Source of the DNA: Chromera velia
Lineage: Eukaryota > Sar > Chromeraceae
Assembly (NCBI GenBank): GCA_018398765.1
Contig: JAHBMJ010001260.1
Span: forward strand, 1-28,370
Direction: 5' to 3'
DNA length: 28,370 nt
Shown: in pieces, positions 2,873 to 26,591 of the stretch
Layout: the number at the start of each line of letters is the position of its first letter
Position numbering within the stretch: position 1 is the stretch's first letter
Program-made: the position numbers and the translations under genes
Notes under the pieces: generated by a model
Databases searched by the model: none
What the model was told of the DNA's origin: nothing
Seen by the model: the letters and a program-made list of their open reading frames with translations, nothing else

Positions 2873-4690
2873 ATGGGGGGGGAAGCAAAAGGAGGATATG
2901 TACAAAGTGGTCCATCCACGCAGAAGGATGAGGTTCAAAAAGAGCAAAGTCGCAGAGGCGTCATGTACAAAGCTAAGCTACTCCGGTCTCTCGGTGACGT
3001 TCTGCGCAGCATGGACGCATGGACCCGTACTTTGATGCATAACGGAAAGAAGAGGGAGGCTCTGGCAGTCGTGCTGAGGGGACTCCAGCTTGCACTTGAG
3101 CTTCCAGCAGATCTTTTGGTCCTCCCTTCTCTGGTGCTGGCAAGAGTGCGACTCCGACTGAATGCCTCTTCGGTCCTCTCATGTAAGCACGCATGTCTTC
3201 TCTCACGTACTGCCCTTCCATCTTCTGTGTCTCTGTTCTTTTCCCATCTCCCCCCATCCCTGGTAGCTCTCACCTCCTTTCAGCTCTCTCTAGTTTAGAG
3301 CCTCTGCAATCATGCCTGTCCTCTCTCACTGTCTCACGCTTGCACACACAAAGTGTTACCGACCTTCCCACACAAATCCACGCGCTCTTGCACTCACTCA
3401 TTTACTCACCCCACTCTGACTCGGAGTGCCCTAGGAAAGTCCATGAAGTCATTTCCGATGGATGTGCATAGGTAGGTGTACGTGCGTGCGCCTACTGTCC
3501 GACCACGCATGCACGCAGACTTGGGATCTCACAGAAGGGCACAGCAGCACCTTGGGATTGCGTCAATGGAGCTGCACCTTCTCATTCTGGGGTCCTCCCA
3601 CACACTGGAAGAGGACGCAGCAGAAAAGCGGCCAGAGTGGATGGCCGAAGCTGTCGAGCTCGTCTGCGCAGCTCTGTGTTCAGCAATCATCGGTCGGTCC
3701 TTCGGTCTGCCTCTTTCTTTCTTTCTTTCTTTGGCGATATATTGATAGAATTACTGTCACTCTCTGACTATCTGTGTGAGGGCTTCGATTCAAAGGCAAC
3801 TCAGTGTGCAAACCAGAGCTGGCCGACTGCATGTTTGGGTGAGCAATTGATCAGCTGGACCTGCATGTCACGAGCATGAATGCTCGAGGAAGCTGGGTCG
3901 ACGTAGTGTCTCCATGTGAGGAGGTACGATAGGGAGGAAAAAATGCATGGAACTTCTGTCTGGTTGGCTGGCTGGCTGATTGTTGGTCAGAGGAAACGAA
4001 AATGACAGACATGGGTGAGTCAGTGAGTTAGAGAATTGATGACAGAATGAAGATACACAGGCATGGAGGGGCTAGGCAGGCAAAGAGTCAAAACAGCCCT
4101 TGAATCTGGTTTATGTATTCTCTCACATTTCTTTATCCTCTTTTTTCCTTTAATTGTCTCTTCTGCCGTTGTCTTCATGTCCTTTTGAATGCATGCATGC
4201 ATGCAGAGACCGACTTCATGCAGCAAATGACAAAGAGGGAAAAGTCCTTCCGGGTCAGTTCGTTGCTTTGTTTGTCCGTTTGCTTAATTCTTTGCGTATG
4301 AATGTCTGGCAGGCAGGTGTTCTTCCCTGCCTGTGTTGTTCTCTTCTTTCCACTGCAATTCAACCTCATGTGGTTCTCTTCTCTTCTCACCCCACTCCTT
4401 CAATCGTCTGCCCAAAAGGCTGCAGGGGTCTTCTTTCTTTCATCTTCTCTTCTCTTCTCTCCTCCCATGTTTTTACTTTTCACATCGCAAACCCTCCCAC
4501 CTGTTGCCCGTTCACGTTGATTCGTCTGTCCATCCATTTCTTTCTTTCTCCCCCTCTCTCTTTCTTGTTGACCATGCAGACGCTCCTCCGAGAGAGCCAA
4601 GCACTCGCTTTGCTTGCACTTCCTCGAGACTCTCAGAGACTATTTGAGGTGGTGGGGGGTCTGAAGGCATTCGAGGAAGCAATCGAGCAG
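2873..4690 (+). other. TPR-like helical segment encoded by exons 1-4
   Basis: Exons 2873-3182, 3519-3692, 4207-4253 and 4580-4690 join in phases 1, 1, 0 and 0. They give a continuous helical protein with the alternating small and large hydrophobic pattern of tetratricopeptide repeats. The clearest unit is around the first junction, where LGSHRRAQQHLGIASMEL resembles the second helix and start of a TPR. The fourth exon adds another amphipathic helix ending AFEEAIEQ. TPRs are protein-interaction scaffolds; no catalytic motif is present. The TPR call is by pattern only and would need a profile search. Confidence 0.45.
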
Positions 4691-5065
4691 GTCGGCCTGT
4701 CTCTCTGTCTGTCTGTCTGTCTGTCTGTCTGTCAAGAAAAGACGATATAGTCTGTCTGTCTGACTTTCCTCTCCTCTCCTCTCCTCTCTTCTCTTTTCTT
4801 TTCTTTTCTTTTCTTCTCTTCTCTTTCAAAATCATGTGTGTGGCATAACATCTATCTGCTCTCTTTCGATCACTTGGAAACAAACATGCGAAAAGAGATC
4901 GGTGTTCTGCGTGCAAGATATGAACAGTTGATAGTGGCAGAGTGACTCGCTACTTTCTTCCTTGGCTTCTCTAACGGCGTGTCTGTCTTGCAACACGTTC
5001 TTTTTGCTCCGTTCGTCCTGGTCCATTCTTGTTGCTCGACGACATTTTTTATGCCCGTCTTTCTG

Positions 5066-5096
<31 letters not shown>

Positions 5097-8000
5097 GGCT
5101 TTCTGTCTGCAGCATTTCAGGCCGATTGCCACCTTCACGAAAGTGCCCAGCAGACTCGCAGCCCCCTTGCAGCCTCCCCCCCCTCCTCCGCCTCCTCCCC
5201 CCCCCGACGCCCCCACGATGGAGGAAATGGCCTCAAAGGCACGTCGGAACTCCAGATACGAAATGGAGCAGTTCGTTGATGAGGAGACCCTCAAGACGTC
5301 CATGGAGGCCACCATCGCAGCAGTGATGGAGCAGAGACGACTCTCTCAGGCCTCCGCGGCAGAGAAGGCGAAGCAGGCAAGACTGCAAGGGAAGAGAAAC
5401 TCACATGCATCGAATTCGACCGAACAGAGCAGAGGAGGAGACCAAGGAGGAGGAACTGCAGCATTCAGACCCAGCATCCTACATCAGTCCAAGGGAGTCT
5501 CCCAAGCAGGAGGGCCCAGAGAGCTCAAACCCCCACCCCCTGCTGGACAGACGGAGGGAGATTCTTTGAGTCCCTCTGCAGGAACGCCGTCCTCGCCTCT
5601 TCCTATGAAAGTCTCAGGCCCCCTCAGAGAGATTCCTGTGTCTGGCGACAGCTCCCAAGCGAGTGAATCTGAGAATGGATCCGAAAGCTCTTCGGGAGAG
5701 GAAGAAGAAGAAGAAGAAGAACAAGAACAAGAGGGACCGGAGGGAGAAGAGGAGGAGCAGAGGGTCCATGCAGCCCGCCCCGCAAGTTTGGAGGAGGAGG
5801 ACTCTTCGAATACAAGGTAGGTAGCCAGGGAGGGAGGAAAGCACGCATCGATGAGCTGTGAGAAGGAGACGGGGTCCGATTGTTCCTTCCATCCCTTTTT
5901 GTTATTCGTGTATCGATATTTGTGTTCACGTCTTTCTTCTGCTCATTCAAATCCTCTCGAAGAGTCATTCGTTAGATAAAGCCCATACGAATCTCACTGT
6001 CTCTCTTTCTTTCTTTGTGTCCAAATCCAAACCCAAATCCATGCAGGTCTGGAAGGCCCCCCTCTGCGTGTGCTGCCAATGGGGGAGAGGAACCTCGGGA
6101 GTCCGGAATTTTGGAGGATGGTCCCATGAGGACAAAGGAGATGGGAACAGAAAAAGAAGAAGGGGGGGAAACATGTGCTTCTCCGATTCCTCCTTCTCTT
6201 CTCAACGTGACTGGGGGCCTCGTGGGGGTGGTCAGTCAGTCAGTCAGCCAATTAGTTGGTGTCTTGATGAGTTCGTGAGCAATTTACGCAGGCAGGCAGG
6301 CAGCCAGGTAGGTGGGAGTGTGCGTCCTTGTCGTTTGGAACAAAAATCATTTGGAAGAACAGAAGTCATCAGACTGACTGACTTGGGGCATCGGTGAGGC
6401 CATAGGTAAGTATCCTCGTCAGCTGAGCGTCCCTAGCCCCACTCAGCACGGATCCGCAGATTTATATAAGATGTTTTCTTGCGGTCTTGAACTCATGCGC
6501 TCCATCCTTCATATCACCATCATAAATGCACCACCCCGCTCTGTTGTTGTCCTTCTGATGACTTTCATACTGTTCGTTCATTGCAGCTGACAACTTCTCT
6601 GGGGGTCTCGGAAGAGTTCACGGAGGACCCTGTTCAAATGGAGAATTGGGGTCTCGGTGCGTTGCCCGAGAAGCCAAAAGAGGAAGAGAGAGAAAAAGCA
6701 CCCCCCCCCAGACCCACAGTCCAGACAGAAGAGGAGTTTCCAAAACCGACCGAAGGATTTCTTGGAACTTTCGTTCCCCTTTCTTTCTCGACTGCGCCTC
6801 CTGAGAAGGAAAAAGAAAAAGAAAGACAGCAAGATGACATGAATGAAAAAGGTCCCACAGAAGAATCGCACGATCCCGCTTCTTCTTCTTCTTCTGCTGC
6901 TGCTGCTGGTGCTGCTGCCGAGGAGCCCCCACCCAAGGTAGAATCCCCCTTCCTTCTCTTCCCAGACTCTCCCGTTCAGGTCAAAGAAAGAAGAGATAGC
7001 GGGGGGGGGGGATCCCAGATCGAATCTGAGTCGACAGCAAAGACTGGAGAGATGTTGTCAGCCGACGGAGACGGAAGCAAGAGGAGAAAGAAAAAGAAGA
7101 AGAGGCGACATAAGCATGAAGAGACGGATCCCGACGCATTAGAAAAACCAGAGCTTCCAGCTCCTCTGGAGCCAATTCAGTCCAATGACCAGGTCCAGCC
7201 TGCACCCCGGACTTTTGAATCTGCCGCTCAGAGGAGACGCCGAGAAGTTTTAGATCGGTGGAGAAATGCTGTTTGGCGCATTATGAGAGAGCCAGGGGGG
7301 ATCAACTTAGCTTTAGGCAATCCCCTCAGTGGCGATCAGTCTGCGTTTTCCTTCAGGGCCCTCAACGAGAGGAATAAGGAGGCTTCAGCAGAGAAGGCGA
7401 AACGGTTGAGAAATCTGAAACGAAAAAAGTCAGTTTAGAGAATAAAATAGAATCAGGGAAAAAAAAACCTTCTTCACATTCAAAATAGTGCAAGACGTCA
7501 ATTGTGAACGCTCTTCCCTCTCCTTCTGTCTATTTTGCTTGTGACTGTCTGGAATAAGGATAAAGCCAGCCAATGTTGTACTCTTTGTGCCCTTTGGATG
7601 TTATTTCTTATTTCTTCTCCCCTCGTTTCCTGCATCATGTCTGTCTGACTGCCCAATTAGTTAACTGACCATGCATGGGCCTCCCTCCCTGCAGACGAAT
7701 GTCAGCCCAGGGCTTCTCAAGTCAGGCCATGAGAGACGACGCCGCGAGAGAACACAGGCTGATGCGAGAGGGTAGGTGGGTAGGTAGGTCGGTATGTGGT
7801 TACATGCGCAGACGTGATTGGCAGAATGGACGATCGAACGGCCATTCATGGATCTTTAGTTTGTTTGAAACAGCCCCTGAGATAGTGAAGGGAGAAAGAC
7901 AGATAGATGCTGACAGCAGTCGCTCTGATGTGCACACGCAAATAGGAGTGGCATGTGAACATGGAGGGAGCCCGAATGAATGAATGAATGCATGAATGAA

Positions 8001-8566
8001 TGGATGAATGAATGAATGAATGAATGAATAAATGAATGAATGAATGCATGAATGAATGAATGAATGAATAAATGAATGAATGCATGAATGAATGAATGAA
8101 TAAATGAATGAATGGATGAATGAATGAATAAATGAATGAGTGAATGAATGCCCAAACAAACGAATTCATCTTCCCGAAGAATCGAAGAGGAGTGACGATG
8201 TTGTGCTCAATGTGACGTTTGATGCACAGAATATTCATCTTCCCTTGACCTTTGCAGATTGGTACTTCAAGTTTTGCGTCAAACACTTTCATCGCGTTGT
8301 GCGGGGTCACAAAGTTGCGTTAAGTTTAACGACGGTTCCCTCAGTCACGCCGGGACTGGACAGAGAGAAGGACTTGACGACTTATGAGTTCTTCCTTCTC
8401 TGTCGGGCCGTTAACGCAAGAATTCTGAAAAGAGCTACACTCAAGTGAGTGAGTGAGTGAGTGAGTGAGTGAGTGCGAAGAAGGTCGGACAGGACAGCCT
8501 CTTCATTGTTCTTCATACTGTCTGTCTGTCAATCTGTGTGTACGCTTGTCTGTCTGTGTGTCTGTG

Positions 8567-8601
<35 letters not shown>

Positions 8602-10749
8602 TCGTTTCCTTTAGAGGAATAAAACGAACAGACGACAACACAAACAAGAAGGGTCGGTCGGTCGGTCGGGCAGAGAATCCATCCGTCTCCTTTTCATCTT
8701 TGCTTGTGTCTTTTCAGGTATGCTCCCCTCGTTTCCCCCTCTGTCATTTCTGGAGGCCCTCGTCAAGGTTTCCTCACCTCTGCGCTCCCCTCTGTGTCCC
8801 TCTTCGAGACCAACGAGCAAGTCGACTGGGACGCGTTCGTAAGGGAGCAGATCGTTGCAAGCAGAATTAAACGGAAAATGCCATCGTCAGTCCATCCTGT
8901 TGGACTCTCTTGAAAAGAAGAAGAGTGTGATGGAACATTGAATGACGTAATTAAAACAAACACGCGAGAATGGAGCAATCGGTGCACAATGGAGCACGCA
9001 GAACCTGATTTCCTGCAGTTCTTATTTCATTTTTTGGCCTTTGTTTGTTTTTGTCTGGTGTCCTTTCTTCCCTCGCAGCCCCCCTCTGAGCCCATGCACA
9101 ATCTTTCTTGAGTAGACAAGAAGATCCAAGGCACACTTGCTGATCCATCCAACACAAAGAAAGTACCTCCATTCAAGTGCAGCAAGTCATTAGAATTCAT
9201 TCAAGATGCGAAAACACAAACAAACACGTGCATGCATGCATGAATATGCTGTCTCCCCCCCTCCGACAGAGCGGGAGTATCTGACGAAACGATCTGGAAG
9301 AATCTCACGATGAGAATCAGAGACTACCAACAGCTCCTACAGGATTCATCCAGGAGAGTGGTCAGTTAGTCAGTCAGTCAGTGATGCAAGAAAGATGGTA
9401 AGGCGTTCTTTCCATCAGACTGAATGCAGTCAGTCGGTTTTGATTGTCTTTTTCTGCTTGAGCGAGTGACGATGCGTTGTTGATTTGTCAATCAATCGAT
9501 TGTGTCTGTCGATCAGCAGACGGTTGACACAATTTTTTTTGCAGCACTCCCTCCGATTTTCTTGCCATCGCCCTGCCTCCGTTTATTTTTTGAACCTGAC
9601 GACGCTGAAGACCCCTCTCTCTCTCTCTCTCGCTCTCTTTTTTTTGTTCATCTCCCCTCATGCAGGATCGTCTGTTGAACGGGAAGAAAGATGCCGTCAA
9701 CGATCGAAAAAGTCAGTCTGTCAGTCAAGTGACTGTGTCGCGTCAACTAAGAAGAGAAAGACGCGTACATGCACCCTAAAATCACTCCCTGTTTTCCGCT
9801 TCATTCCAGGTTCAACTTCCTGTCGATGCATGCGTCTGCCTGCCTGCCTTTCAGAAGGAAGACCCAAATTGGGGCCGGACATGATTCTTCCTTCCTTCCT
9901 TCAATCGCATCCATTCCTCCTACGTCCGTCCATCCCTTCTTTTCTTCCTGTCTTCCAAATTCGCTTTCCCCCGAATTCACATATGGATGGATGCATGCAT
10001 GCATGTACGAGGAGACCGCAAGTATTTTGCGTTATCATAATCTCCATCTTTCTCTCTCTCTTTCTCTCTCTCTCTCCGCAGGCCTCGCCAAAACGTACAG
10101 CGGAGGGTCGGCAGGCCAAGGGGGCGGCATCAGTCCGGGGCGCTTCAACGAATTGAGAGGCTCCTTGTTGAACCTGACGGGAATGCTGAAGGGCAACCCC
10201 GGAGCTCCGCAAGCACAGACTGCACCCGCCCCCATGATCGGATTTGCCGCTCTGTCTCACCCCCGTGAGGCTCGCAGTGGAAGCAGCCAGCCGGGGGTGG
10301 GGGCGCCTTCAACGACTGGCTTCGACGGCGGGTCTGCTATCTCTGTGGCAGGAGGGGGAGGAGCGAATGGAGGGGGTGCAGCTTTCCAGCCGGGGAGTGG
10401 AGGGGAGAGGGAAAGAGAGAGGACGCCCGGGTTTCCTCTGAACGCCCGTGTGCTGCTTCTGAGGAGTCATCAGATCGCAGACAGAATTGCGCCGTTCTTG
10501 GTCAGTCTGGGGGGCAGCGAAGTCAACTTACGGTGAAGGAGAAGAAGACAGAGTGAGAGAGATAAATCACAACCTTCAGTGAAATCCATTCATTTCAAAT
10601 TTGAAGATCAACCCGGCCTCTGCTGAGCAACAGAATGGCCCGACATGTTTGAGTCTCGCGTTGTGATCGTACCTATGGCAAATGGAGCCTGCTCTTTCTT
10701 CCTCTGTGTATGTGTACGGGTTTATGTATGTGTGTATGTATGTAAGCAC

Positions 10750-10811
<62 letters not shown>

Positions 10812-11211
10812 ATATGCGTGTGTATGTATGTGTTTGTGTGTGTGAATGTGTGTGCGTGCGTGATTGAGTGAGTGAGCAGTAAGTGAGTCATTATTTGAAC
10901 GCGCTCGACTGTTGAGGTTCGTGCAGATCCAAGACCGTAGATTCCGCCCCCTGAAGCTGCAACCTCTGCAACGCAAGACGGTCAACACCCGAGGCGGTCC
11001 AGGAGGAGGGACTGTCATCTTACCCATCAATGCAAAGGACCAAAAAGGAGGGGGCATCCCAAAAGGGGACCAGGCAGGCAGGAGAGTGAACTCAATTGAC
11101 GGTAGTCCGCCAAGAAACTTCAAGTTAAAAGAGATCGAGGTTGATGGAGTCGACGCCGACCACCATCAACTTGGGAAGAAGGCAAGATGCATGTCTGCTG
11201 TGTATTGACGT
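2873..11211 (+). CDS. Large uncharacterised protein with TPR-like N-terminus (14 exons)
   Basis: I do not recognise the family. Model: join(2873..3182,3519..3692,4207..4253,4580..4690,5113..5816,6047..6230,6587..7428,7695..7771,8258..8444,8718..8885,9270..9360,9666..9711,10082..10500,10927..11208), 3,642 nt, about 1,213 aa. Every junction keeps frame between GT and AG. Residues about 57-125 form amphipathic helices with TPR-like spacing (LNASSVLSYLGSHRRAQQHL). After that come a polyproline run (about 5173-5208), a Glu run (about 5698-5760), an Ala/Ser run (about 6877-6920), a KKKKKRRHKH basic cluster (about 7084-7116) that could be a nuclear signal, and well-ordered C-terminal exons (such as DWYFKFCVKHFHR at 8258 and VDWDAFVREQI at 8821). 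The start is uncertain: an in-frame TGA at 2795 closes the frame upstream, but an acceptor-like TTCTGCAG at 2808 allows an earlier first exon. The stop TGA is at 11206-11208; the end given includes a few bases beyond it. Intron 6 has alternative in-frame donors at 6222, 6228 and 6231. Confidence 0.6.
4697..4733 (+). repeat. (CTGT)n microsatellite in intron 4
   Basis: The tract begins just inside intron 4, right after the donor GTCGGC at 4691. A long CTCCT/CTTTT pyrimidine tract (about 4765-4826) and a CT tract before the acceptor (5071-5097) follow, so the intron is mostly simple repeat. Confidence 0.8.
7429..7446 (+). promoter_or_regulatory. Donor GTCAGT overlapping a stop and AATAAA
   Basis: The donor GTCAGT at 7429 joins in phase 2 to the exon at 7695 (AA + A, Lys), which keeps the large gene open. 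If the donor is not used, translation stops at TAG 7436-7438 and an AATAAA lies at 7441-7446. The site is therefore either a plain donor or a composite terminal exon giving a shorter protein by intronic polyadenylation. Confidence 0.4.
7772..7797 (+). repeat. (GTAG/GTGG)n donor-derived array
   Basis: The 5' splice site GTAGGT of intron 8 continues directly as a degenerate GTNN tetranucleotide array (GTAG, GTGG, GTAG, GTAG, GTCG, GTAT). Each unit start is a potential donor shifted by 4 nt. Confidence 0.6.
7974..8149 (+). repeat. (GAAT)n tetranucleotide satellite in intron 8
   Basis: About 175 bp of GAAT units are interrupted by ATAAATG, GCATG and GGATG variants at roughly regular spacing, which suggests higher-order expansion of blocks of about 24-36 bp. 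All three minus-strand frames translate as Phe-Ile-His-Ser repeats; these are artefacts. Confidence 0.9.
8445..8474 (+). repeat. (GTGA)n array starting at the intron 9 donor
   Basis: The exon ends at 8444 and the intron opens with seven consecutive GTGA units. The first is the donor consistent with phase 2 joining to the exon at 8718 (AA + G, Lys). Downstream in the same intron are a (CTGT)n tract at about 8518-8599 and a GGTC tract at about 8652-8669. Confidence 0.75.
10750..10810 (+). repeat. (CT)n(GT)n compound microsatellite in intron 13
   Basis: A CT dinucleotide run switches to a GT run, followed by degenerate GTAT/GTGT repeats to about 10860. It lies between the donor at 10501 and the acceptor at 10926. 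Confidence 0.85.
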
Positions 11212-12224
11212 ATTCAATACTAAAAAAAAGGAGTATCATACTAGGGTCCTACTGATATGAGTTTAGATGTATATTGCATACTTCTAGATGAAAGATAAAA
11301 TAATAATTTAGGATTTCTGAGAAAGATTTAGAATATTAAATTTGACAAAAAACATTTTTGAATTATAATCTGAATATAGTAATATGATCATTTAATTTGA
11401 TTTCTGACATTAGACTACATTATGACCTAGATTATGGCATTGATGGATTTTTGTACAGTATTATCAATATTTATCATAAATGTATGTGAAATGCTTATAC
11501 GATTGATTACTAGATAGATATTATATCATGATTTATTATAGCTTATCTCTATCGCTCTAGCTACGGCTACACTAGGCTATACTTATAATGCCAGTGGTGA
11601 GAAATCGTCATCATGCAACTTGAATGCCAGCCTGAGTACTTATAAGCCTTAGAGCCTATAGCGTTACCTACTATAGAACTAATAGCATAATGTTTTGAAC
11701 TCATTATGTTACTTATACATCTAACATCATTATTACAAACTTATACTAAGTAATACTATTAGTAGTAATAATCTATCTGTAAAGTAAAATTACTTGTATA
11801 ATAATATTCTACTATTCAAGTAACTATTAAGCTGAAGGTGCCTACATCTAATCATTAGATTTCTATACTTACAAAACCACTTCTTAGGCCAGTTCTAGGG
11901 CCAGTTCTTAGGAGACTAGTTATAGTAATCATTGTGAAATTAATTTATATACAATTAATTCAACCTCCATTATCAGATAATATGATTTAAATCGCGACTT
12001 TTTAAAATTGAATTATAATTTATAAACATACAGTAAGCCATTTGAAATGCGGTTAAATATGCTGCATATCATAAATAAAAAAAGGAGTCAAAATTTTTTC
12101 TGGCATACAGTTTTACTCTTAGCCTGAGGTGAATTCACTCAATTGAAAATGTTTTAAACAAATTTTTCAATGTATTAGTCCTCTTCAGCTGCTGTTCAAT
12201 GATGTTGCATTTTTTAAAATTTTG
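11209..12224. other. AT-rich, ORF-free island between convergent genes
   Basis: Composition changes abruptly at the stop codon of the plus-strand gene and returns to normal at the stop codon of URB1. The stretch is dominated by A and T, lacks the CT/GT microsatellites of the rest of the window, and has no open frame worth reporting. A 12-bp direct repeat AAAAAAAGGAGT occurs at 11223-11234 and 12077-12088. A shorter repeat, GGCCAGTTCT / GGGCCAGTTCT, lies at about 11888-11909. It probably includes both 3' UTRs and the shared terminator region. Insertion of foreign or organelle-derived DNA is an alternative I cannot test. Confidence 0.6.
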
Positions 12225-15200
12225 TTACGCCAAGTCAACTCCATTCCCTTCTGCATCTCTTTGCACCCACTGAAGCGCCCCCCTGACAGACTTGCACAGC
12301 CGCATGCCCTCCCTGATTGCTACAACAAGCCCTTCATTGCCGCTTGAGCGGCTTTGACTTAGATTGGGATTCGATGCCGTCCCAACAGACATGTGCTGTG
12401 GGGTTCCGAGAGTGTCTGTCCTTTCGCTTTCGCTCTGCAATCCGGCAGAAAAGAGATGCCACCTGCTCTCAAGAAGACAAGCACACTCGTGCAGGTTCCT
12501 CAAAAGCGGGTGGTCGAGCGGGAGTCTCTCGGAGAGGTCCCCGATCCCCCCCGTCTTTGCATCATCCTTTCCTTTTTTCTCATGGGGGGACGAAGAGGGG
12601 AACCGGCAAAGAATGTGAAGACGCGCGAGTCGACCCAAACTCACAGGATCCCGCCATCTCTCCCCACCCTCTTCACCTTCCCCGTATCCTTCCGAACCCT
12701 CCCGTCCGGACGGGTCACAGGTCGGGAAGACAAAGGCAGTCTGGGGATCTGAGGAGGAGAGAGAGAGGGAGATGGCGGGAGGGGGAAGGAAACTGGCGTG
12801 CACGAGGGAAGCCAGGAGACGGGAGAGAAGACGGAGACGGCCCCAAATGCGCACTGCGGGCACATCTGCTGCCGTCTGCTGGGCCCTTCTCTGTCCTATC
12901 CCCTCGGGGGTATTTGGAGGCTGGCTAGCGAGGTCACTGGGGAGAGACGAGGAAGTGGAGGGAACGAGGACCCTGGCATGCCTGTCAATGAAGGTGACGA
13001 CAGAGTGATTCCGCAGGAGAATGTGCGCCTGTCGTGTGGCCTCGGGGAGATCCTGCATTTATGGTCGTCAGTCAAGCCATACAACTATCAACAAAAGAAG
13101 GGAATCACTCATGAGAGAGAATGCTGTACTTCATTCTTCCAAACGTTTGCCTGCCATACAACCGCCGTCATTTTCACCCTCAGTCTGCCACTCTTGGTGT
13201 ATTTTCAAGTGAAAAAGAAAGAAGGGCAAAACAAGCATCATGGCAACGTGCTTTTGGAACCTCGAAAACCGAAAAAGAGGCACACCGACACAGCCTGCCT
13301 GCGCAGATAACATTGTGTACACAAGGAAGACACAGGGCCTCCCCTCATTTGTGCGTGTCACACAAACCGACCGACTGACCGAGAAAGAATACCCACTCAG
13401 CCCCCCTGCAGTAGCAGAGACCGTGCAAGCTCTTCTGAGGCACTCCACCGAGGCCTCCCAGAGACGCCAATCGCCGGATGACACAGGACTCTCCCCCCCC
13501 CCTGCAAAGGGAAACAAAGGATCCGGGGGAGGGGGCAGACCCGGCCCCCCTCCACACACACCCAGGAGGAGAGGGAACAAATGGACCCTCCCCATGGATG
13601 AGGACAGGAGAGAAAGGCCCCCCCGGACCCCGGCATGCCTCGTCGTTTCCCCCTCGTCCTCCGCCGGCTCATCTTTCTCTGGGCCCCCATCACCCCTCTC
13701 GTCACCCGGGTCGTATCTCAACAGCCACCCCGGAGGGACAGGGTCCACAGGAGCAAAGAAAGCGCCAAGAGACCGTTTGAAGATCTGCAAAGAAAAAATG
13801 AACGACCAGAAAGCACGACACACTTCTGAAAGCTCGATCACCGATACAAGGCTCAAAGGAAGCCCAGAATGGAGGGAGGATTTTGAACAGGCACAAGATC
13901 GAGTGCATGTGTTGCACCATCTCTCTCTTTCATGGAATTCCCAACTTTCAGTCCATCAGGCAGAGAGAGTCTCTCTATCCAAAAGGAGAAAAAAAGAAAA
14001 GAAGAAAGGCGACCCACCCACCTGGACTGCCCACAGATGTTCCAGGGCCCCCCTTTGAAGCAGTGCGTGCACCCCCGCCCCCTCCTCTCGTCCCCTCTGG
14101 AACAGAAACAGGTCGCTGACCAGACCAGCGACCACAGCGCCATCAAGAAGAGGGCGCCTGAAGAGGCTCTTGCACAGGAGTGGAAAGAGGGGATGAGAAG
14201 GGGTGAGAAGGACGGGCACAGAGGCGCATGCAAACACGGCGATGAGGGGAGGAAGACGGGGACAAAACGGCAGACGCATCCCCCTTCTCTGAGTAGAGCT
14301 CTGCTGCTGCCCTCTCCCTCTTCCCATCGCACCCTCTTTCTCTTTCTCTTTGCCCTGCCCTTCTCCTTCTTTGTTGTCCATGGAGAGAAGCCCGGAGGCA
14401 TGCGAGAGCGCAGTGCGGACCTGCAGGGCAGGGCGGGAGGGACGAAACAAAATTTCCATACGAGAGAGACACCTACTCATTCGCGTTCACGGTTGGTTCA
14501 GAAAGTCGACGGCAGACCAGACTGACGGGAGAATCTACAGAAAGAAAAAGGAAGTCTCGAGAGTAGACGGGTTGTTCTTACTTTTTCAATGCCTCTCTCT
14601 GCTCACATACATCCCTTACTGACTGACGGACCTGGAAGAGCATTTCCAAAAGAAAGGGGAATTCTCGGAATGGATAACGGAGGGAGGGCGCACTCAGATC
14701 CTCCTCTTCCGGTTGGTCAGCTCCTTCTCCTTCTCCTTCTTTCTCAAGAAGACCCCACGCCTGCTTTTTGGCTTTTCGTTTCCTTTCTGTCTTCTCCCTC
14801 CTCCTCTCTATCTTCCTCTCCCACTGCCACACACGTCGTTGATGTGCGATCTCTGCCTCTCTCTCCATCACCTCCAGGGAACGAAGGAAACCGCCCAGGC
14901 CAGCCAGTGCCACCCATCTCAAAGATTCATCCTGCGCTCATGTCATAGACAGAAAATAAGAAAGCACATAAAATCCTTGACCGATCCATTTATTCATTTA
15001 GATCCTGCCACTCCCTATCTGGCAAGACGATTGATTAATTCTGCATCCATCCGCAGTGAAGGACGGGACCAACAAAATATCGGAGAGAAGTCTATTTCAC
15101 AGACGAACTCTGACGGCTGCAAAAACAAAAAACGTGAGCAAAGAGTGACGTATGCACACGCCAGCACAAAAGAGCGAGAAGAAAAAGGGATAAAGCAACA

Positions 15201-17322
15201 CTAGACAGAGGATGGATCGACGCCCCCCCCGTTCAGACAGAATGCCCCGCCATGCATACTCCTTTTGTTTTGCATTCAGGAGCCCAGCACGATCTTCTCT
15301 CCAGCAGAGAGAGTAAGTTGACAGACCGACATGGGAAGAGGCAGCCAGAAGAAGAATCTGAAGAGCACCACCGGACGCAAAAGCCCGTGCCCACCCCCCA
15401 TCCTCCCCCACTCCATCCATCCAACTTTCCCACCGGAGGGGGAACACCGGAACCTCCAGCGACTCCTTCCCTCCCTTGTCACCCCTCTGCACTCCCCCCC
15501 CCCCCCNNNNNNNNNNNNNNNNNCCTCTCTGTTGCCCCCCGGCCTCCGCCGCTGCCGCCCTCCTGGATGCCTCCCCATACTGCCGCAGACGCTGACGGTG
15601 CCTCACAATCAACATCGCTGCGTGGGCTCTTGAGGCAAGGACGGGGACAAGATAGGGAATCAGGTAGGGAAGAGGAAGAGACCCCCTGTCTGTACGAGAA
15701 GGGACTGAGGAGGACGGAGGAAGTTCCGAGTGGACAGACGAGGGAGGAGACAGACGAAGGAACGTCGTGCCAGTGAAAGCAGAAAGAGGAGAAATGGCAA
15801 AAGGAATTGTCTCGGTTGCAAAGGGGAAGGCCGAGAGTGTCTCCCTCAATCTGTCCGGATCCAGTGCCAGCCAGTCCCCTTTCTCTTTCTCGACACCTTC
15901 TGCTCTGTATTCGATCCTGCCCGTGGAGGCCGATCCGGATCCCCCCTTCATTCGATCTTGTTCCCTCCACCCGGGGAGGGAAGGCGCCAGACGGAAAAGT
16001 TCTGTGGCTACCGCAATGGGCTGACATCCAACCGCCGTGTTGCCGAGCTGGAAGGGTCTGTCGATGTCGGTCTCCAGGAGAGTCACAGAGCTGAGCCCCG
16101 ACCTGACTGCCAAAGAGTGGCCTTTGGTCGGAAGAGAGACATCGATGAATCTCGAGGGATCGGTAGAGACTGTACCGGCGATAGTGATGAGAAATGTGAG
16201 GCGGTCCAGGGACTGTGCCGTGAAGTTTTTGGAGGGATGGGGGGAATGAGAGGCGGTGAAGAGCGGAAGGAGACGTGAGATCAGAGGTGCCAACCTGGAT
16301 ACACACTTCCCCCTTTCCCATTCAGAAACTCCGGTCTCTTCCTCTTGTTCGGAAGAGGAGGTGGGTGCCCTCTTCCTCCACAAGAGAAGAGAAAAGAGAG
16401 AGATGCGACTGAGTGCTTCAAGAAGATAAAGTCCATCATTCCCTCTTACATCTCTTGGCAGTGCGTGTGCCATGAGGGAAGGCAATTTGGAAAGGATTTT
16501 GTCCCCCAAACTGGACAGAGACTCTACAGACCGAAAAAGGGTTTCTTTCTCTTGTACGTCTACCCCCTCTTCTTCCTCCTCCTCCTCCTCTCCCTGGGCA
16601 TTACTGGCACTGGCGTACTGCTCGGAAATCCGTAAAAGAGCTCCCTGGGTGACAGCCAGAAGGCCCAGGGCCTCAGCTAGAATGCCCAAACGCTCAACCC
16701 GCCTCTTTCCCCCATTCCCCGATTGTTCGAACTTATCATCTTCCCCTTGTCCTGATGTGCCTACTCTCTTGGCAGCTGGGTGCTCGTCCTTCTCTTCCCC
16801 TTCGTCCTCGTCAGAGGAGGAGGAGGAACTGTCAAAGTCCCCCCTCTTTCTCTTCAACAGAGTCTCCCTCCCCACCTGCCCCCCCCCTCTACCCTTGTGC
16901 AGCTCCTCCAAGAGCCCCCTCCCAACTTCCTCGAGGGAGGACGCGATGACCTCCAAGCTCTTCCTCGTTTTGTCGGACTGTTCTTGTGACCCTGAATCCC
17001 CCCAGCTTGCTGAGGAAAAAGAGAGCGGCAGATTCAGAAGCCTTAACGCAGCCTTTGCGTATCTGCAAACAAACACATAAACAAACTCCAATGTCATCTG
17101 AGCTTTTGAAAAGACGGACTTAGATTTTTTGTTTTTTTCGGCGAAATGTCGAGCAGGCAGATAGAAAGGCAGGCACTCTTTCGACTGTTTCGTCTGAGAG
17201 AGACAAGGATAGTCAGCAAAGCAGAGGGGGAGACGTTCAAATACGCACGCGATGCACAGAAAAGTGCCGTCATGGGACGCGCAAGACAGGTACAATCTCG
17301 TGACTAAGACTGTTGCTCTCTG

Positions 17323-17355
<33 letters not shown>

Positions 17356-20300: not shown

Positions 20301-23300
20301 CAAACACTCTTTGAGCAACACGCTTCAGTCCACTCCCCTCAGTCTCTCACCTGACCGACGGACCTGCAGCGTCCCTCGGGATCCCCCCAAATCCCCTCGT
20401 GACACAAAAGTGCAACGAGAGCTGACGTAGCAGCGCGGCTGAAAAAAGGGAAAAAGCAGGAACTGCTATCCCTCCATCTCGTCTGCATTTTTCGGCACTC
20501 TCCCCTTCCCCCTCTCCTTGTTCTTCCTGCTCCCACCCCTCCCCTTGCTTTTGCTGCAGAGGCGCCAGCACCGAAAAAGGAGACGAGGAGGCGAGAGAAA
20601 GGACGGCAAGAGTCAAAACCACCACATCGTTCCGCTCTCCCTCCCCCTTTTCGCCACCCCCCCCCACCCCCACGGAGGAAATCCCGGAAAGCCACGCAGC
20701 CGGCTCGTCAACAACTTCTGTGGGGGCAAAGGCACCCGACTCCGACAGGACTCTGCATCCAGGCATGCGCGCACGCATGCACAGATCCATCCATTCCATT
20801 ATTCCATCCATTCAATCTCCATGAGAACAGGTGATGGCCGAAGAACATGAGCATAGACTGATGGTCAAGGCTTTCCGTCTCGTACTAAAGCACCATACGC
20901 ACACCCACACACTCACAGGGAGAGGGAGAGCGTGAAAGAGCCCTGGGAGCTTCAACAAGGGAGATGGATGAGTGAGTGAAAAGGGACGGAGACGGCGGAC
21001 GAAAAGACGCAGACAGACAGACCAACCCTGTCGCCACTTCATTGACCAGCTGCAGAATTCAGACCTTTTGTGCATCCACCCGAAAACCGACCGAGATTGT
21101 TTTATCGCTCTCTGTATTCCTGCTGCCACTTCTCTTAGTGGTGTCACTATTCCGACTATCCATCCCACCCAACTGACGGACCTCTTCAGGATTGTGCGGC
21201 AGACCCTGGACAACACAGAGACGGCTCTGTTGCCATCACTCCGTTCTCCTGGCCCGTCTCCGACCAACTTTGCGTCTGTCCCTGTCTGCACAGCAAATAG
21301 AGCCCCCGCCCACTTCTGCAGAGGTTTCGACCCTCGTTGGCCCCTCAGAGAAAGGGAGGAGGAGACGCTCAAACCTGTGTCAACAAGAAGAAGAAATTCC
21401 GCAAGTTCAAAACAGGATGCAGAGGCAACTTCCGCATCCCTGTCAGACACGCCCTTTCCCCTCCTGACAGACTCCAACATTTCCGATGCACCTCCCCGCT
21501 CTTCCAACAAACGGAGCCAGTCAAAGCCCCCCCCCGCCAAAGAAGAGGCAGAAGAAGACGAAACAACGGAACCTGTACCACTTCTCCCGTCAGCCCAGCG
21601 GGAGACCACAAGAAACAAACGGAGACTCCACATCCACCTGCATGCACACAGACAGTCAGGAGGCTCGAATATCAATCTGATCTGATCTTCGCATCTTTCT
21701 TCGCACTTACTTATCCGTGACGTTCTTCCTTCTTTTGATAAGGGGAAAGGGCAGAAAGAATAAGAAACAAGTCGCAGAACACAAAGGCAGCAACTGCTGC
21801 GCAGTCGGAACGAGAAAAAGGAATAAACATCTGACGACTGGCAAAGACGAAATGGCAGCCTTTTCAATTTACTGACTGTCTCTGCAAGCTCCATTTGCCT
21901 AAGTCAGCCCCGTCTTTTTCTTCTGAATCACCGAGAGACCAAAGAATGAGTCCCTCTTTATCTCTTCCATTCGTCTTCCTCTTTCTCAGCGTCTCCCGAG
22001 AAGCTCTCTCTGTCTCTGTCTGAGAGAAGAAGAAAGCGTCCGAGAGAAGATGCAAAAACCAAACGGAGGCGCCAACCGGAGACGGTCCGGCCCTCACACG
22101 CCCCATTTGTCGCTCTCTTTGTCCTTCTGTTTTCCCCCCTCCCCGGTCCCCTTTTGTTTTTTCTTCAGACAGCGAAGAAACACCCGGCCGAAGAAGGGCT
22201 ACTGCTGCCTGCAGGGAACTTTCCAGTCCCCCTTGACCTCTGACATCATCTTCTTTTCCCATTACAACATCTCCATCTTCTTCCTCCTTCTCTTCTGCCT
22301 CAAAATTTAACATCAAGTCATCCTCATCCTCTCCTTCTTCCTCCACTTTCTCCATTTTCAACCCATCGCCATCTCCCTCACTCTCACCCCCCTCCCGAGC
22401 CCCTGAACGAAAAATGGCGTTTCTTGACCCCAATAAAGGCTGCAGCTGGGGTAACTGGGACAACACCTGAGCACAAACAGTTGTCAGGGCAACGGAAACA
22501 TCGGGGACTGTCAGAAGGCTCTCTCTCCCGCTTGCCGCCACAACCCTCGACGACAGGAGAGCACAGACGGAGAGAGCGAACGCGGTGGCCATAGGGGAAG
22601 GATGAAGCAGACACGCCGTAAGGGAGGCACGAGAGAGGAACGAGGGTGGGCTGGCCAACTGGAGATCAGAGCCATTTCTCTTTAAATTATTTGTCCCTCC
22701 AAAATGCCCCAAGCCAGCTTCTTCCTCTACCTCCGTCTGAAAAGAAGGCTCACTCGAAAATTCGGAGGGGGAAATATCTGCAGCTAAAGCCGAAGGAGAC
22801 GGCAACAACAAACCTCGGGCCCTTAAAAGCCCTAAAACTGCATTCCCATTACCCCCAGCGCCCCCCCCTCTCGGGCTACCGCTTTCCATCATTCGTCTTT
22901 CTTCCTCCCCCTGACCCCTCTCGACACCAATACTTGGAACCTCCTCCTCCCCCCTCCGTCCCTTTAACTTTCCGGGGCCGCTCTTGGATGGTCGGAGGGC
23001 CAGCAGCCGGAGTGCGAACCCCGCAGAAGAGGCCCATTTGAGGGTGAGTGCCTCGGGAGGAGAAAGCAGAAGGGGGACCTGGGCGAGGAAGGAGGGAATC
23101 AGGGAGGGTCGTTGTCGTAGGACTTCTAGAACAATCGTCTGTTCTGTAGGCCAAAAAGGAGAAAGACCTAAAAGAGCAGTCAACACAGTTCCCTCCTCCC
23201 TCTTACCATAAATCCTTTCATCCCCCAACAATCCCACCAGAAATCGACACACCTCATCCACACACGCCTTCAATCCTGAAGAAGAAGACGAAGAAGGCGT

Positions 23301-24368
23301 ACTTCCATTTGCCAAATCCTCCGACAACAATCGCGACAAATCTGCGGGGCTTCCCACACCCTCCCACAGGGCGGTCGACAAACGCAGCAAAAGAGCTGTC
23401 ACTTTTTGGAGTGCGAAATTGTTCAAGACACCCGTTTTCTGACGCACTGGCACCTCACTATTCTTAACCACCCCCGTCCCTAGTGTTCGAAGAAACGGTA
23501 GAGCTCTCTGAGGGGGGTCGTATTGAAGTGCAAACAGCCCTTTGCCAAGGAGCCCGCGCACTCGCAGAGCGCCACTCACTACGGAGCCAACGGGACATCT
23601 AAGCAGAGACGAGAGAAGACGTAAAAACGCCCCTCTGTTTGTCCCATCATCACTCAAATCTGGTCGTCCACTTTCGTCCGTCTCTCCCCCCCCGTCCCCG
23701 CCCCCCATCTCTTCCCCGTCTCCCCCCCGTTCTCCGTGCTGCCGTTTGATGTTATCCCCCATTCGCAAGAACCCCTCCAGAGAAAAATCCCATTCGCGAA
23801 CAAAAGCGGCAGCCACCGACGGGTTCAAAGAAGCCGCAGATGCAAGCGCGCGAAGCGCACCACGCCCTGTATTTCCGCCCAGGCTCCTCCCCCTTCCAGC
23901 TAACATCCACTCAGCCACATTCTTCAACCGTCCGGCAGAAACGAGACGGTCTGCAATGCACCGTCTCGTCTCTCTGGTGGGCAGACTGTGCGCATCTAGC
24001 AAGGGACACCGTAAAATCAGATCGAAAAATTCCAACAGCTTCTCAATAACAGACCTGACTTGAGACTCTTCATCTTTCTCTCTGGACTGGTGTGAGCGTT
24101 TTTTGTTTTGGTGCTGCTGTCGGTGGAGTCTCTCCATTCTGTCCCACAAATCGAAGAGCTCATTTCCCTGGGGAGAAGAGTAAAAGAGTAAAAACGTCTC
24201 TGCAAGTAGCTTCTTCCATTTTTTCTTCTCATCCTCGGCACCCTCTGATTCCAAAGTCCTCACAACGGTGCAGAGGTGTCGACAGAGACGGGAAAGGAGA
24301 CGGAGAACCTCACGAGGGGATCCACCGGAGAAGATTCCTGCCGGCCCCGCGTCCCGATTCAAATCCAT
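12225..24368 (-). CDS. URB1: URB1/Npa1 nucleolar pre-ribosome assembly protein (10 exons)
   Basis: Model: complement(join(12225..13052,13380..13784,14022..14420,14632..14931,15331..17062,17463..19285,19673..20067,20364..20752,21182..21637,21877..24368)). The total is 9,219 nt, 3,072 aa, with ATG at 24368 and TAA at 12227-12225. All joins keep phase. Homology is read from both ends. Near the N-terminus, AAFVREWDFSLEGF (about 187-200) and YDPPQRALPFLRTL (about 283-296) with NNFALQKV (about 316-323) match the Npa1 domain pattern. Near the C-terminus, TPSHPLFPLLCKSLFRRPLL (about 2602-2621) matches the URB1 C-terminal (NopRA1) signature. In yeast, Npa1/Urb1 works with Npa2/Urb2, Dbp6, Nop8 and Rsa3 in the earliest pre-60S particles in the nucleolus. 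This protein is much longer than yeast (about 1,760 aa) or human (about 2,270 aa) URB1 because of acidic, Lys- and Gly-rich insertions. Exon 6 contains a 17-base assembly gap. Confidence 0.82.
14022..14420 (-). CDS. URB1: URB1 exon 8: C-terminal NopRA1 signature
   Basis: It joins in phase 0 to exon 7 (which ends EFPFLLEMLFQ), the usual order in the family. After a charged Lys/Glu/Gln insert comes the conserved block LPPLIAVFACASVPVLLTP and its continuation ending SLFRRPLLD, which I recognise as the URB1 C-terminal motif. The exon ends at CAG before GTGGGTGGGT. Confidence 0.75.
15507..15523. other. Assembly gap (17 N) in a C homopolymer
   Basis: Seventeen N follow at least 14 C bases and lie inside URB1 exon 6, where the coding strand would be poly-G (Gly codons). 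The reading frame on both sides agrees if the gap is 17 nt. The true length is unknown, so a few residues there are undefined. Confidence 0.95.
17316..17365. repeat. (CT)n/(CTGT)n microsatellite in URB1 intron 5
   Basis: On the coding (minus) strand this is a purine-rich GA/ACAG tract, opposite in polarity to the pyrimidine tracts of the plus-strand gene's introns. It lies between the donor at 17462 and the acceptor at 17063. Confidence 0.85.
17463..19285 (-). CDS. URB1: URB1 exon 5: central helical region
   Basis: The exon opens in phase 0 after CTCTTTGCAG and ends in phase 2 before GTTGGT, joining to exon 6 as GALRYAKAALRLL. It is rich in Leu/Ala helices typical of HEAT/ARM-like repeats, interrupted by an acidic Lys/Glu insert (about 18640-18740) and a short KREKAKKKKG cluster (about 18503-18532). 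No catalytic motif is seen. The long plus-strand frame over the same DNA (17313-18566) is a shadow. Confidence 0.65.
21877..24368 (-). CDS. URB1: URB1 exon 1: N-terminal Npa1 domain
   Basis: This 830-codon exon carries the most diagnostic part of the protein. Helical-repeat sequence is interrupted by disordered inserts: an Asp/Glu/Gly-rich one at about residues 205-245, a Lys/Arg/Gly-rich one around 23000, and a strongly acidic one encoded near 22240-22360. The Npa1-like core includes the WDFSLEGF, YDPPQRALPFLRTL and FLVGLLGDERIYG segments. The exon ends at 21877 before GTCAGT in phase 2. Without splicing the frame stops at 21864, 13 nt further on. Confidence 0.75.
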
Positions 24369-24667
24369 TCTATCAACAATGGGGGCTATGTGAAAGCTAA
24401 TTTCGCTTTTTCTAAGGGGTCACTGATGGCCGATCGACACTTTCTTGAGGAGAGCAGAACATGCAGGAGCAGATCTTCCAAATTCATCACGTGAACGCAC
24501 ACGGCCAGAAGAAAAGAATCTTCCACAACTGATCAGACATACGCAGGACCCTCCCCAGAAACGAATTGAATATGTACGAAATGTTTGCCGTCTTCGGATC
24601 CTCTGGCAGTTAGTGCTTGCATGTTCCAACTCTGTGACATCCTGTGACGTGCCAGACTGTGCAAACT

Positions 24668-24712
24668 GACAGTATATTGACAGTCCATGACAGTCCGGAG
24701 GACAGTCCGGAG
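24668..24712. repeat. Four GACAGT repeats at near-helical spacing
   Basis: GACAGT starts at 24668, 24679, 24689 and 24701, with spacings of 11, 10 and 12 bp. The last two are part of a perfect tandem 12-mer GACAGTCCGGAG (24689-24712). The cluster lies about 300 bp upstream of the URB1 start and is a candidate array of transcription-factor sites. Confidence 0.5.
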
Positions 24713-24740
24713 GTGATTCAATGGCCCCCGCGAGGGCGGA

Positions 24741-24951
24741 GGGGGACTCGTACAAAATACTTTATGCAACATAACCCCCCCCCCTCCAAAGCTATCGATC
24801 ATATATATGCAATTTGCTGGTTGCATAAGGCGGCGGCGCGTATGTAATGGATGCTAGAATGCGGCGGCGCCCAGAGGGACCACCTCTGCATAAGACCCCC
24901 CCCAGCCCTCTTATGCAACTCCGTTGCATAAGGTATTTTGTACGAGCCCCC
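24741..24951. mobile_element. MITE-like element with about 30-bp terminal inverted repeats
   Basis: The left end (24741-24770) reads GGGGGACTCGTACAAAATAC followed by TTTATGCAAC. The reverse complement of the right end (24923-24951) is the same apart from one missing A and one T/C change. The roughly 210-bp element has no coding capacity. Inside, the TTGCATAAG motif recurs in both orientations. The right end also forms a perfect 10-bp hairpin, CTTATGCAAC-TCC-GTTGCATAAG (24910-24932). Size, inverted repeats and promoter location fit a non-autonomous DNA transposon. I could not define a clear target-site duplication. Confidence 0.6.
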
Positions 24952-25364
24952 GAGGCTTGGAGCGCGTGTTCGCACGGAGCCCGCCGCACGGGGGGCACTT
25001 ATATACTCCGCTCTTCTGGCACATTAATTCTGGATCATTCTGGCACCCCAGCGCGGTTCCAGTGAACCTCTCCTCAATCTTTTCTCTCAGTCGAGAACAG
25101 TTCTTCGTTCTTCTTCTGACGGTCCTCTCTTCTTTCACAATTATGGTAGACCCTAGTAGATGACCTTTAGACCCTGCATGCTCTGTGTACTTAGCTGTCT
25201 TTGTATGTGCCTGTATAGATTGTTGAAGGTCGATCTTTATTTTTATACAGACACCGGCCTCGGTGTTCAGAAAGGTTGCCTGTGTCCTGATGCACAAGAG
25301 TTCCTCCAGACTCTTGTTTGAAGCTTCAGGATTGATCTTGCCCTTCTGAAATGCTTGGGACGCG

Positions 25365-26591
25365 ATGAGTTCAGATGAAGTGACGGGTGACTGCACTTCG
25401 CCCAACCTCTCGAGTAATGAAAGGGATGTCCCACTCAGTGTGTGTGAAAGCAGTGAAAACACTGGGGACGTCTCTTTTTTTCACTCGGGGCGGGCAGCTG
25501 AAGGTCCGTCAGACGGGAAAGGCGATAAGGGCCTTAGCCCATGTGGTTCTCCATCCGTTGCTGGTGTCGGAGAGAACGAGAGACCAACTCCCTGCTCCTT
25601 CCCACCAGACGGGGACGGGGATGAAGACTTGGAAGCGGGAGAAGGAATTGTAGAGAGGTGTCGTTTGGGAGATGGTGCGGGATCTCGGCTTGCGACACGT
25701 GCCACCTCCCTTTCTGGTCATGAGGTTTTGGGTTCTTCTGGGGCCTCGTCTTCCTCTAACTCACCTGCACCGTCATGGCACAGGAACGCTTTGTCTGAAG
25801 GCGCCTTTCCCCTTGATTCTCCAGAAGAGGAGGGGGTGATGGAGGACTTCATGGGCACAGCAGCAGAAGGAAATGAAGACATGTATCATGGCGGTTCTGT
25901 GTATTCTGCTGATGGGTTTTCGCAAGAGGGGGATGACAACGAGACGGAGGGAATGGGGGAAAGGGAAGGGAGGGAACCACAAGGGTTTGACAACGGAGAG
26001 TGGTGGGGGGATGGGGGCTTCCCCCCTGGTCCCCCTTCCGATCAAAGGGGGGGTTCTCTTTATTCGCAGGGAGAAGAGGAGGAAGAAGAAGAGGAGGACT
26101 TTGATCAGATGTTCGCGAATGACCAGCCGCCAGAGGGGGGGGTTGCCGTTGAGATTCCTGTGGAAGAATTCGGGAAGGGCGTGGAGACACTCCATGAAGC
26201 TTTTGCCGGTCGGTTGGTTGGTTGGTTGATTGGTCGGTTCCGTGGATTCCTTCTTTCTTTCTTTTCTTTCTTTCTTTCTTTCTTTCTTCCTTCCTTTCTT
26301 TCTTTCTGTCTTTCTTTTTTTTCCTTGCTTGCTTGCCTGCATGCTTCCGTGCTTGCTTGTTTGCTTTCTTTCTTTCGTTGAGCGCTTTTGGTTATGTTTT
26401 CCTCCCCACTCCTTCTTCCATTTGAGTTTTTTTGTCAATGGCCCTTCTCTTGCAATCCCCTTTTTCCGTTTCGGGGGGGGGGTTGACCTTTTTGGTCATT
26501 GAGTTCTGTCAAGTCACCTGATGCATTCATTCGTGTACGGGCCGTCCTTGTCCCTCCCCCCGGTGCTTCAATGGCTGCGTGTTTTTTCTTT

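Follow-up and report, generated by a model that had tools for sequence, protein, structure and literature searches.

Intronic microsatellites arise by replication slippage and may lie anywhere in an intron. The subject of this study is a group of tandem tetranucleotide arrays, (GTNN)n, that begin at putative 5' splice sites in a 28,370-nt stretch of the Chromera velia genome (assembly GCA_018398765.1, contig JAHBMJ010001260.1, positions 1 to 28,370; hereafter, the window), together with the introns of conserved genes of the same genome. Like intronic microsatellites, these arrays consist of tandem 4-bp units with imperfect copies, and 4-periodicity extends across the sampled genome. Unlike intronic microsatellites, they keep a fixed phase and position relative to the splice signals and die away within about 28 bp.

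Two further systems come close. In mammals, GYNNGY (delta-4) tandem donors carry a second GT four bases past the donor at about 47% of constitutive donors, an arrangement that stems from the donor consensus itself (Bortfeldt et al. 2008, PMC2423196). The mapped C. velia donors are similar in having GT at +5 in 55 of 74 cases; unlike the mammalian sites as that report presents them, they show a register that spans about six units, NN letters that are copied from unit to unit, and a similar pattern at acceptors. The report is concerned, in its main lines, with the use of both donors; for the donors described here, both matrix score and U1 energy point to the first unit. In the alveolate Amoebophrya, introners are described that bear direct and inverted repeats (PMC7789003); repeats at intron ends are common to both, whereas the 74 C. 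velia introns show no excess of the terminal inverted or boundary direct repeats depicted in that account and form no convincing families. A literature search returned, among the matches listed, no work on splice-site-locked tetranucleotide arrays. The reading favoured here, with modest confidence, is that the GT-AG introns of C. velia bear, at both ends, tetranucleotide repeats that keep the register of the splice signals, and that these fixed signals seed slippage copies.

Introns mapped by homology

The genome (177.8 Mb in 4040 contigs) was searched for eight conserved genes, namely five CCT subunits, two CDC48/p97 genes and PRP8, and all results on mapped introns refer to this one genome, these genes and junctions placed by homology. 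A spliced protein-to-DNA aligner, in which donors could be any GT or GC and acceptors any AG, with no further context used, was run with chaperonin and Prp8 chains from a PDB search and human p97 as references. Ninety introns were mapped (49 in the CCT genes, 14 in CDC48/p97 and 27 in PRP8) and 74 were kept (35, 14 and 25, respectively). The 14 CCT introns dropped had a margin below 9 or filler X close to the junction, and the two from PRP8 had margins of 5 and 1; the 14 p97 introns were kept without computed margins in view of the protein alignments, in which 541/729 and 441/741 residues are identical. In the PRP8 protein alignment, 1725 of 2135 residues are identical. The 49 kept CCT and p97 introns served as the training set and the 25 PRP8 introns as the hold-out set. 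All 49 training donors are GT, though the aligner also permitted GC; the PRP8 introns were filtered for GT, and AG was demanded by the aligner for all acceptors. The consensus is NAG/GTCAGT at donors and TGCAG at acceptors, with G at -1 in 66 of the 74 donors. A donor matrix (-3 to +6) was built from these 74 sites, whose 5th-95th percentile range is 6.7-13.2 bits.

A four-base register at both intron ends

Downstream of the mapped donors, GT recurs at intervals of four bases: it occupies +5 in 55 introns, +9 in 26, +13 in 21, +17 in 13, +21 in 12 and +25 in 13. In-phase GT fills 85 of 370 positions from +9 to +25, against 36 of 1036 off-phase positions from +7 to +25, in tests (here and in the Fisher comparisons below) that take neighbouring positions within one intron as independent. 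Counted by phase from +9 to +32, GT is found 90, 22, 35 and 20 times, and the four phases are roughly equal past that, the register fading by about +28. At least three contiguous GT units start at 24 of the 74 donors, compared with 48 of 1348 interior GT starts in the same introns; such enrichment at intron position +1, sharing the donor's register, is what the sequence-only reading of the window had anticipated. The number of GT units per donor ranges from 1 to 11, the highest value coming mostly from a GT run.

Acceptors mirror this arrangement as (TGNN)nTGCAG. T is present at -5, -9, -13, -17 and -21 in 40, 35, 30, 28 and 30 of 49 introns, and TG occupies 87 of 296 in-phase positions from -9 to -21 versus 81 of 962 off-phase positions, the lock being clear as far as -17. 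Since acceptors are locked in this way, the register is not donor-specific; it is a property of the intron ends. Lag-4 identity follows the same course: its mean over the 71 introns longer than 140 nt is 0.504 at donor positions +9 to +16, 0.361 in mid-intron and 0.539 at acceptor positions -15 to -6, and the exon flanks of 49 introns show no lag-4 excess (blocks of 0.24-0.25). The earlier description of GTNN arrays as extensions of 5' splice sites therefore holds with regard to their enrichment at donors and fails with regard to their being special to donors, as acceptors lock too, 4-periodicity pervades the sampled genome, and the periodicity following GTNNGT is similar at interior and donor seeds in the pooled set (0.515 and 0.520), the values being 0.545 and 0.478 in the training genes and 0.450 and 0.589 in PRP8. 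Gene prediction in such a genome could draw on the extended register at both intron ends.

Five predictions were set down before PRP8 was mapped, at a time when the open-frame translations of the region, with exons running into introns, had already been read and no mapped junctions had. Four of the five held: in-phase GT reached 28/125 versus 10/350 off phase; at least three units occurred at 12/25 donors versus 13/464 interior starts; lag-4 identity was 0.540 at the donor, 0.568 at the acceptor and 0.346 in mid-intron; and acceptor TG was found in 35/100 in-phase versus 20/325 off-phase positions. The fifth, which bears on the origin of the arrays, failed and is taken up below.

Proposed slippage from fixed splice signals

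Neighbouring units within an intron share their NN letters more often than shuffled introns predict, in 17 of 55 cases for units 1 and 2 (7.3 expected) and in 9 of 24 for units 2 and 3 (3.0 expected, p=0.0008), which points to tandem duplication, that is, slippage. In the proposed mechanism, purifying selection would hold the donor and acceptor signals fixed. A 4-bp tandem duplication at the donor would leave the splice site intact and add one unit inside the intron, because GTNNGT matches itself when shifted by 4 (the self-periodicity of this hexamer, noted earlier from the sequence, is correct), whereas other changes in length close by would often damage the splice site. In a genome strongly prone to 4-bp slippage, these constrained signals would thus serve as permanent in-phase seeds; copies may accumulate beside them, reaching about 25-28 bp from the donor and about 17 bp from the acceptor. 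Slippage would be the mutational act, and to fit the data a uniform process would need an addition, either faster slippage close to the edges or weak retention there. A bolder form of this account, put forward tentatively, is that splice signals nucleate microsatellites: the self-similar donor GTNNGT and the acceptor TGCAG would both add copies towards the intron interior, at a rate that is higher locally, elongation at the edges would lengthen both ends, and the spliceosome would keep the outermost copy by means of the exon-side G. If the proposal is right, a constrained signal that resembles itself after a short shift can start the growth of repeats next to it, giving intron ends one route to lengthen and evolution one route to test splice-site choice.

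Simulations combining slippage with conserved splice signals were carried out in 17 runs (one without slippage, one without constraint) of 90-110 introns each, with hand-set rates. With a 3-fold boost at the edges, a run with mid-intron periodicity of 0.364 gave a donor lag-4 identity of 0.466 and GT at +9 in 0.30; a second boosted run reached 0.535 and 0.42, but its mid-intron was too periodic (0.419).

Several results weigh against the seeding account. The three uniform-slippage runs closest to the real mid-intron periodicity (0.368, 0.369 and 0.393) gave donor lag-4 identities of 0.355, 0.432 and 0.410, versus 0.504 in the real introns, and GT at +9 in 0.14, 0.23 and 0.28, versus 0.37. Uniform slippage alone thus falls short at both intron edges in simple simulations, and a more elaborate model might come closer. 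The scarcity of off-phase GT (0.034) was matched by none of the 17 runs (0.067-0.099). As the simulations are simple, their shortfall is an indication and not a measurement. The fifth PRP8 prediction, that donors would show no excess of at least three units once two are present, failed (12/21 versus 13/59 interior seeds, p=0.004), and such an excess had been assigned in advance to donor-specific selection. The same comparison in the pooled set gives 24/55 donors versus 48/187 interior seeds (p=0.009), and in the training genes 12/34 versus 35/128 (p=0.24). At acceptors, TG at the off-phase position -19 (13/49) is level with the in-phase positions -13 and -17 (12 each). At face value, a hexamer coding model also found no coding excess upstream of GT arrays (0.033 of 184 arrays above score 5 versus 0.051 of 3805 random places); this carries little weight because the ab initio model was too weak and was rejected, the scores of true chaperonin exons widely overlapping their antisense scores.

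The failed fifth prediction speaks for an additional factor at donors, either a locally higher slippage rate or retention by selection. The suggestion that slippage could start at the 4-periodic donor is supported by the sharing of NN letters between neighbouring units; the sequence-only reading as a whole is upheld in part.

Possible selection for splicing aids

According to the strongest rival, selection retains in-phase units as splicing aids, for instance as spare landing places for U1/U6 or because the donor is read past +6. The more frequent growth of donor arrays to three units is the outcome pre-assigned to it, uniform neutral simulations underpredict both edges, and off-phase GT is scarce near the donor. 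However, copying of NN letters between units is not expected from selection for GT alone. The excess is also confined to short arrays: donors bear more of these than interior seeds, but given two units they have no more long ones, at least five units being reached in 6/55 donor and 18/187 interior cases. The U1 5' end AAACTTACCTGG would pair neither with C at +7 nor with G at +9. Acceptors and donors are read by different factors, and still the acceptor pattern is similar. Selection of this kind is regarded as rather unlikely, though less so than the other alternatives.

Choice of the donor unit and U1

Regulated tandem donors, in which shifted sites 4 nt apart are used and yield frame-shifted transcripts, are considered improbable. 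GTNN units do supply several GT dinucleotides, and later units outscore the first at 7772 in the window and in 1 of 21 PRP8 arrays. Against this, the first unit scores best in all 34 training arrays with a leave-one-out matrix (partly circular, as the matrix is made of first units), in 30 of the 34 by U1 duplex energy, and in 20 of 21 PRP8 arrays with a matrix from the other genes. G at -1, present in the great majority of donors as given above, marks the first unit and is a main difference between it and later ones. The aligner, which placed donors by parsimony against proteins of other species, itself leans to the first unit because a donor 12 nt further on costs the alignment an insertion. 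On these scores the first unit is the probable splice site, and since it scores best in 34/34 and 20/21 arrays, routine use of shifted donors appears unlikely; this weakens the earlier suggestion that every added unit could serve as a donor. If the arrays are as described, their 1-11 GT units would form a ready-made series of stacked donors with which to study how the spliceosome selects a single GT among many.

A U1 gene at contig C723 lies above the Rfam cut-off, with a further copy at C948 below it, and both of these best copies start with the ordinary canonical 5' end. Because of this, the usual donor GTCAGT mismatches U1 at +3, where C is found in 47 of the 74 mapped donors (L032-L040). 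A variant U1 matching GTCAGT was rejected on the one candidate examined, on contig C587, whose alignment to U1 covers just 17 bp and which lacks an Rfam U1 match; the other one-mismatch places number three, as many as chance would give (the reversed control also has 3).

Genomic background and mobile elements

Tetranucleotide arrays abound in this genome, and some would start at donors by chance. In a sample of 20 stretches of 10 kb (200 kb, including 13,442 N), compared with one Markov simulation, XYNN arrays of at least four units exceed the simulation for all 16 dinucleotides; GT arrays of this size number 120 on both strands, versus 4 simulated. Lag-4 identity, at 0.324, is the highest among lags 1-12. 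GT starts with at least three units number 308 of 18,256 on both strands, and the probability of at least three units given two is 0.197 for GT, 0.195-0.196 for AG, CA, GA and CT, and lower for CC, GC, CG and TA. With arrays so common as background, a raw array count is no proof about donors; in the window itself, 16 of 27 GTNN array starts with at least four units are not donor-like. Yet the 4-base register keeps step with the splice site for about 28 nt and then disappears, and arrays of at least three units are concentrated at donors in the proportion given above, so that pure background, which is very improbable, is already contradicted provided that the mapped donors are right.

That the introns are mobile introner elements with terminal or direct repeats at their ends, as the Amoebophrya precedent might suggest, is hardly credible, because the two ends of the same intron show no excess complementarity (longest match 3.905 versus 3.857 shuffled, p=0.34) and no boundary direct repeat (5.55 versus 5.47 shuffled matches, p=0.26) among the 74 introns. 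Plus-strand blastn of these introns against each other, with low complexity masked, gave 14 rows; among the eight listed, seven are of 17-37 bp and one is of 120 bp, the last stemming from a dispersed repeat. A dispersed-repeat or introner origin of the arrays was rejected within this sample of 74 introns.

The dispersed repeat has a purine-rich core of about 40 bp ending in ACATATA, followed and often also preceded by GTCTGTCTG arrays. The core was seen at 27861-27910 in the window, at about 4363-4540 in L023, and in introns at 3614 in L032 and at 1419 in L037 (with one or two base differences). In the genome the exact 17-mer CATATAGTCTGTCTGTC has 590 forward and 521 reverse occurrences, compared with 0 and 1 for a reversed-letter control.

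Arrays in the window

The window contains the following sites, with matrix scores in bits.
3693..3700, plus strand: inferred donor GTCG GTCC, 2 GT units; 8.4 for unit 1 and -0.7 for unit 2.
4190..4206, plus strand: inferred acceptor, TGCA units closing in TGCAG, mirroring the donor array; 12.7, the top-scoring acceptor after the 3693 donor, at 514 nt.
6231..6246, plus strand: inferred donor array, 4 GT units (GTCA); 10.4 for unit 1, later units at most 5.8.
7772..7799, plus strand: inferred donor array, 7 GT units, donor unit uncertain; 6.9, 9.3, 4.8, 8.0, 10.8, 3.1 and -2.6 in unit order.
8445..8476, plus strand: inferred donor array, 7 GTGA units and GTGC; 8.7 for unit 1, 3.5 for units 2-7.
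9361..9384, plus strand: inferred donor array, 6 GT units; 10.4 for unit 1, later units at most 5.9.
9712..9727, plus strand: additional donor-like array, 4 GT units (GTCAGTCTGTCAGTCA), absent from the sequence-only reading; 10.3 for unit 1.
13360..13379, minus strand: inferred donor array, 5 GT units; 9.1 for unit 1, 8.4 for unit 3.
14010..14021, minus strand: inferred donor array, 3 GT units (GTGG GTGG GTCG); 11.3 for unit 1, 6.1 for unit 2.
14616..14631, minus strand: inferred donor array, 4 GT units; 10.9 for unit 1, later units at most 5.8.
26209..26228, plus strand: inferred donor array, 5 GT units (GTCG GTTG GTTG GTTG GTTG); 10.4 for unit 1, later units at most 5.4.

The eight arrays already named and the start at 3693 were recovered letter for letter, each at its position and on its strand, and these nine sites proved donor-like as proposed, scoring 6.9-11.3 bits, within the percentile range of the mapped donors. 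The first unit has the top matrix score at eight of the nine; at the exception, 7772, the junction is uncertain because units 5, 2 and 4 outscore the first. Counting both strands, with some GT runs counted twice, 11 of the 27 GTNN array starts with at least four units are donor-like (at least 6.7 bits). For the 8445 donor, the frame upstream is open for 101 codons in phase 2, and its phase, read by eye, fits an exon starting at 8718, whose acceptor, 273 nt past the donor, scores 9.2 bits, second best of three listed. Ten open-frame pieces of the window were compared with Pfam; nine had no match above the cut-off, which places the window junctions beyond the reach of homology, and one matched Npa1.

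The Npa1 match (ribosome 60S biogenesis, E=1.4e-9) lies in a long open frame at 21867-24419 on the minus strand, probably one exon of a larger minus-strand gene. A long GAATGAAT array is found at 7976-8150, within the inferred intron after the 7772 donor. A run of N at 15507-15523, probably an assembly gap, lies within a long minus-strand open frame. An A+T-rich stretch of about 1 kb extends over approximately 11200-12200, and the block 10001-12000 has the lowest GC of the window, 0.439.

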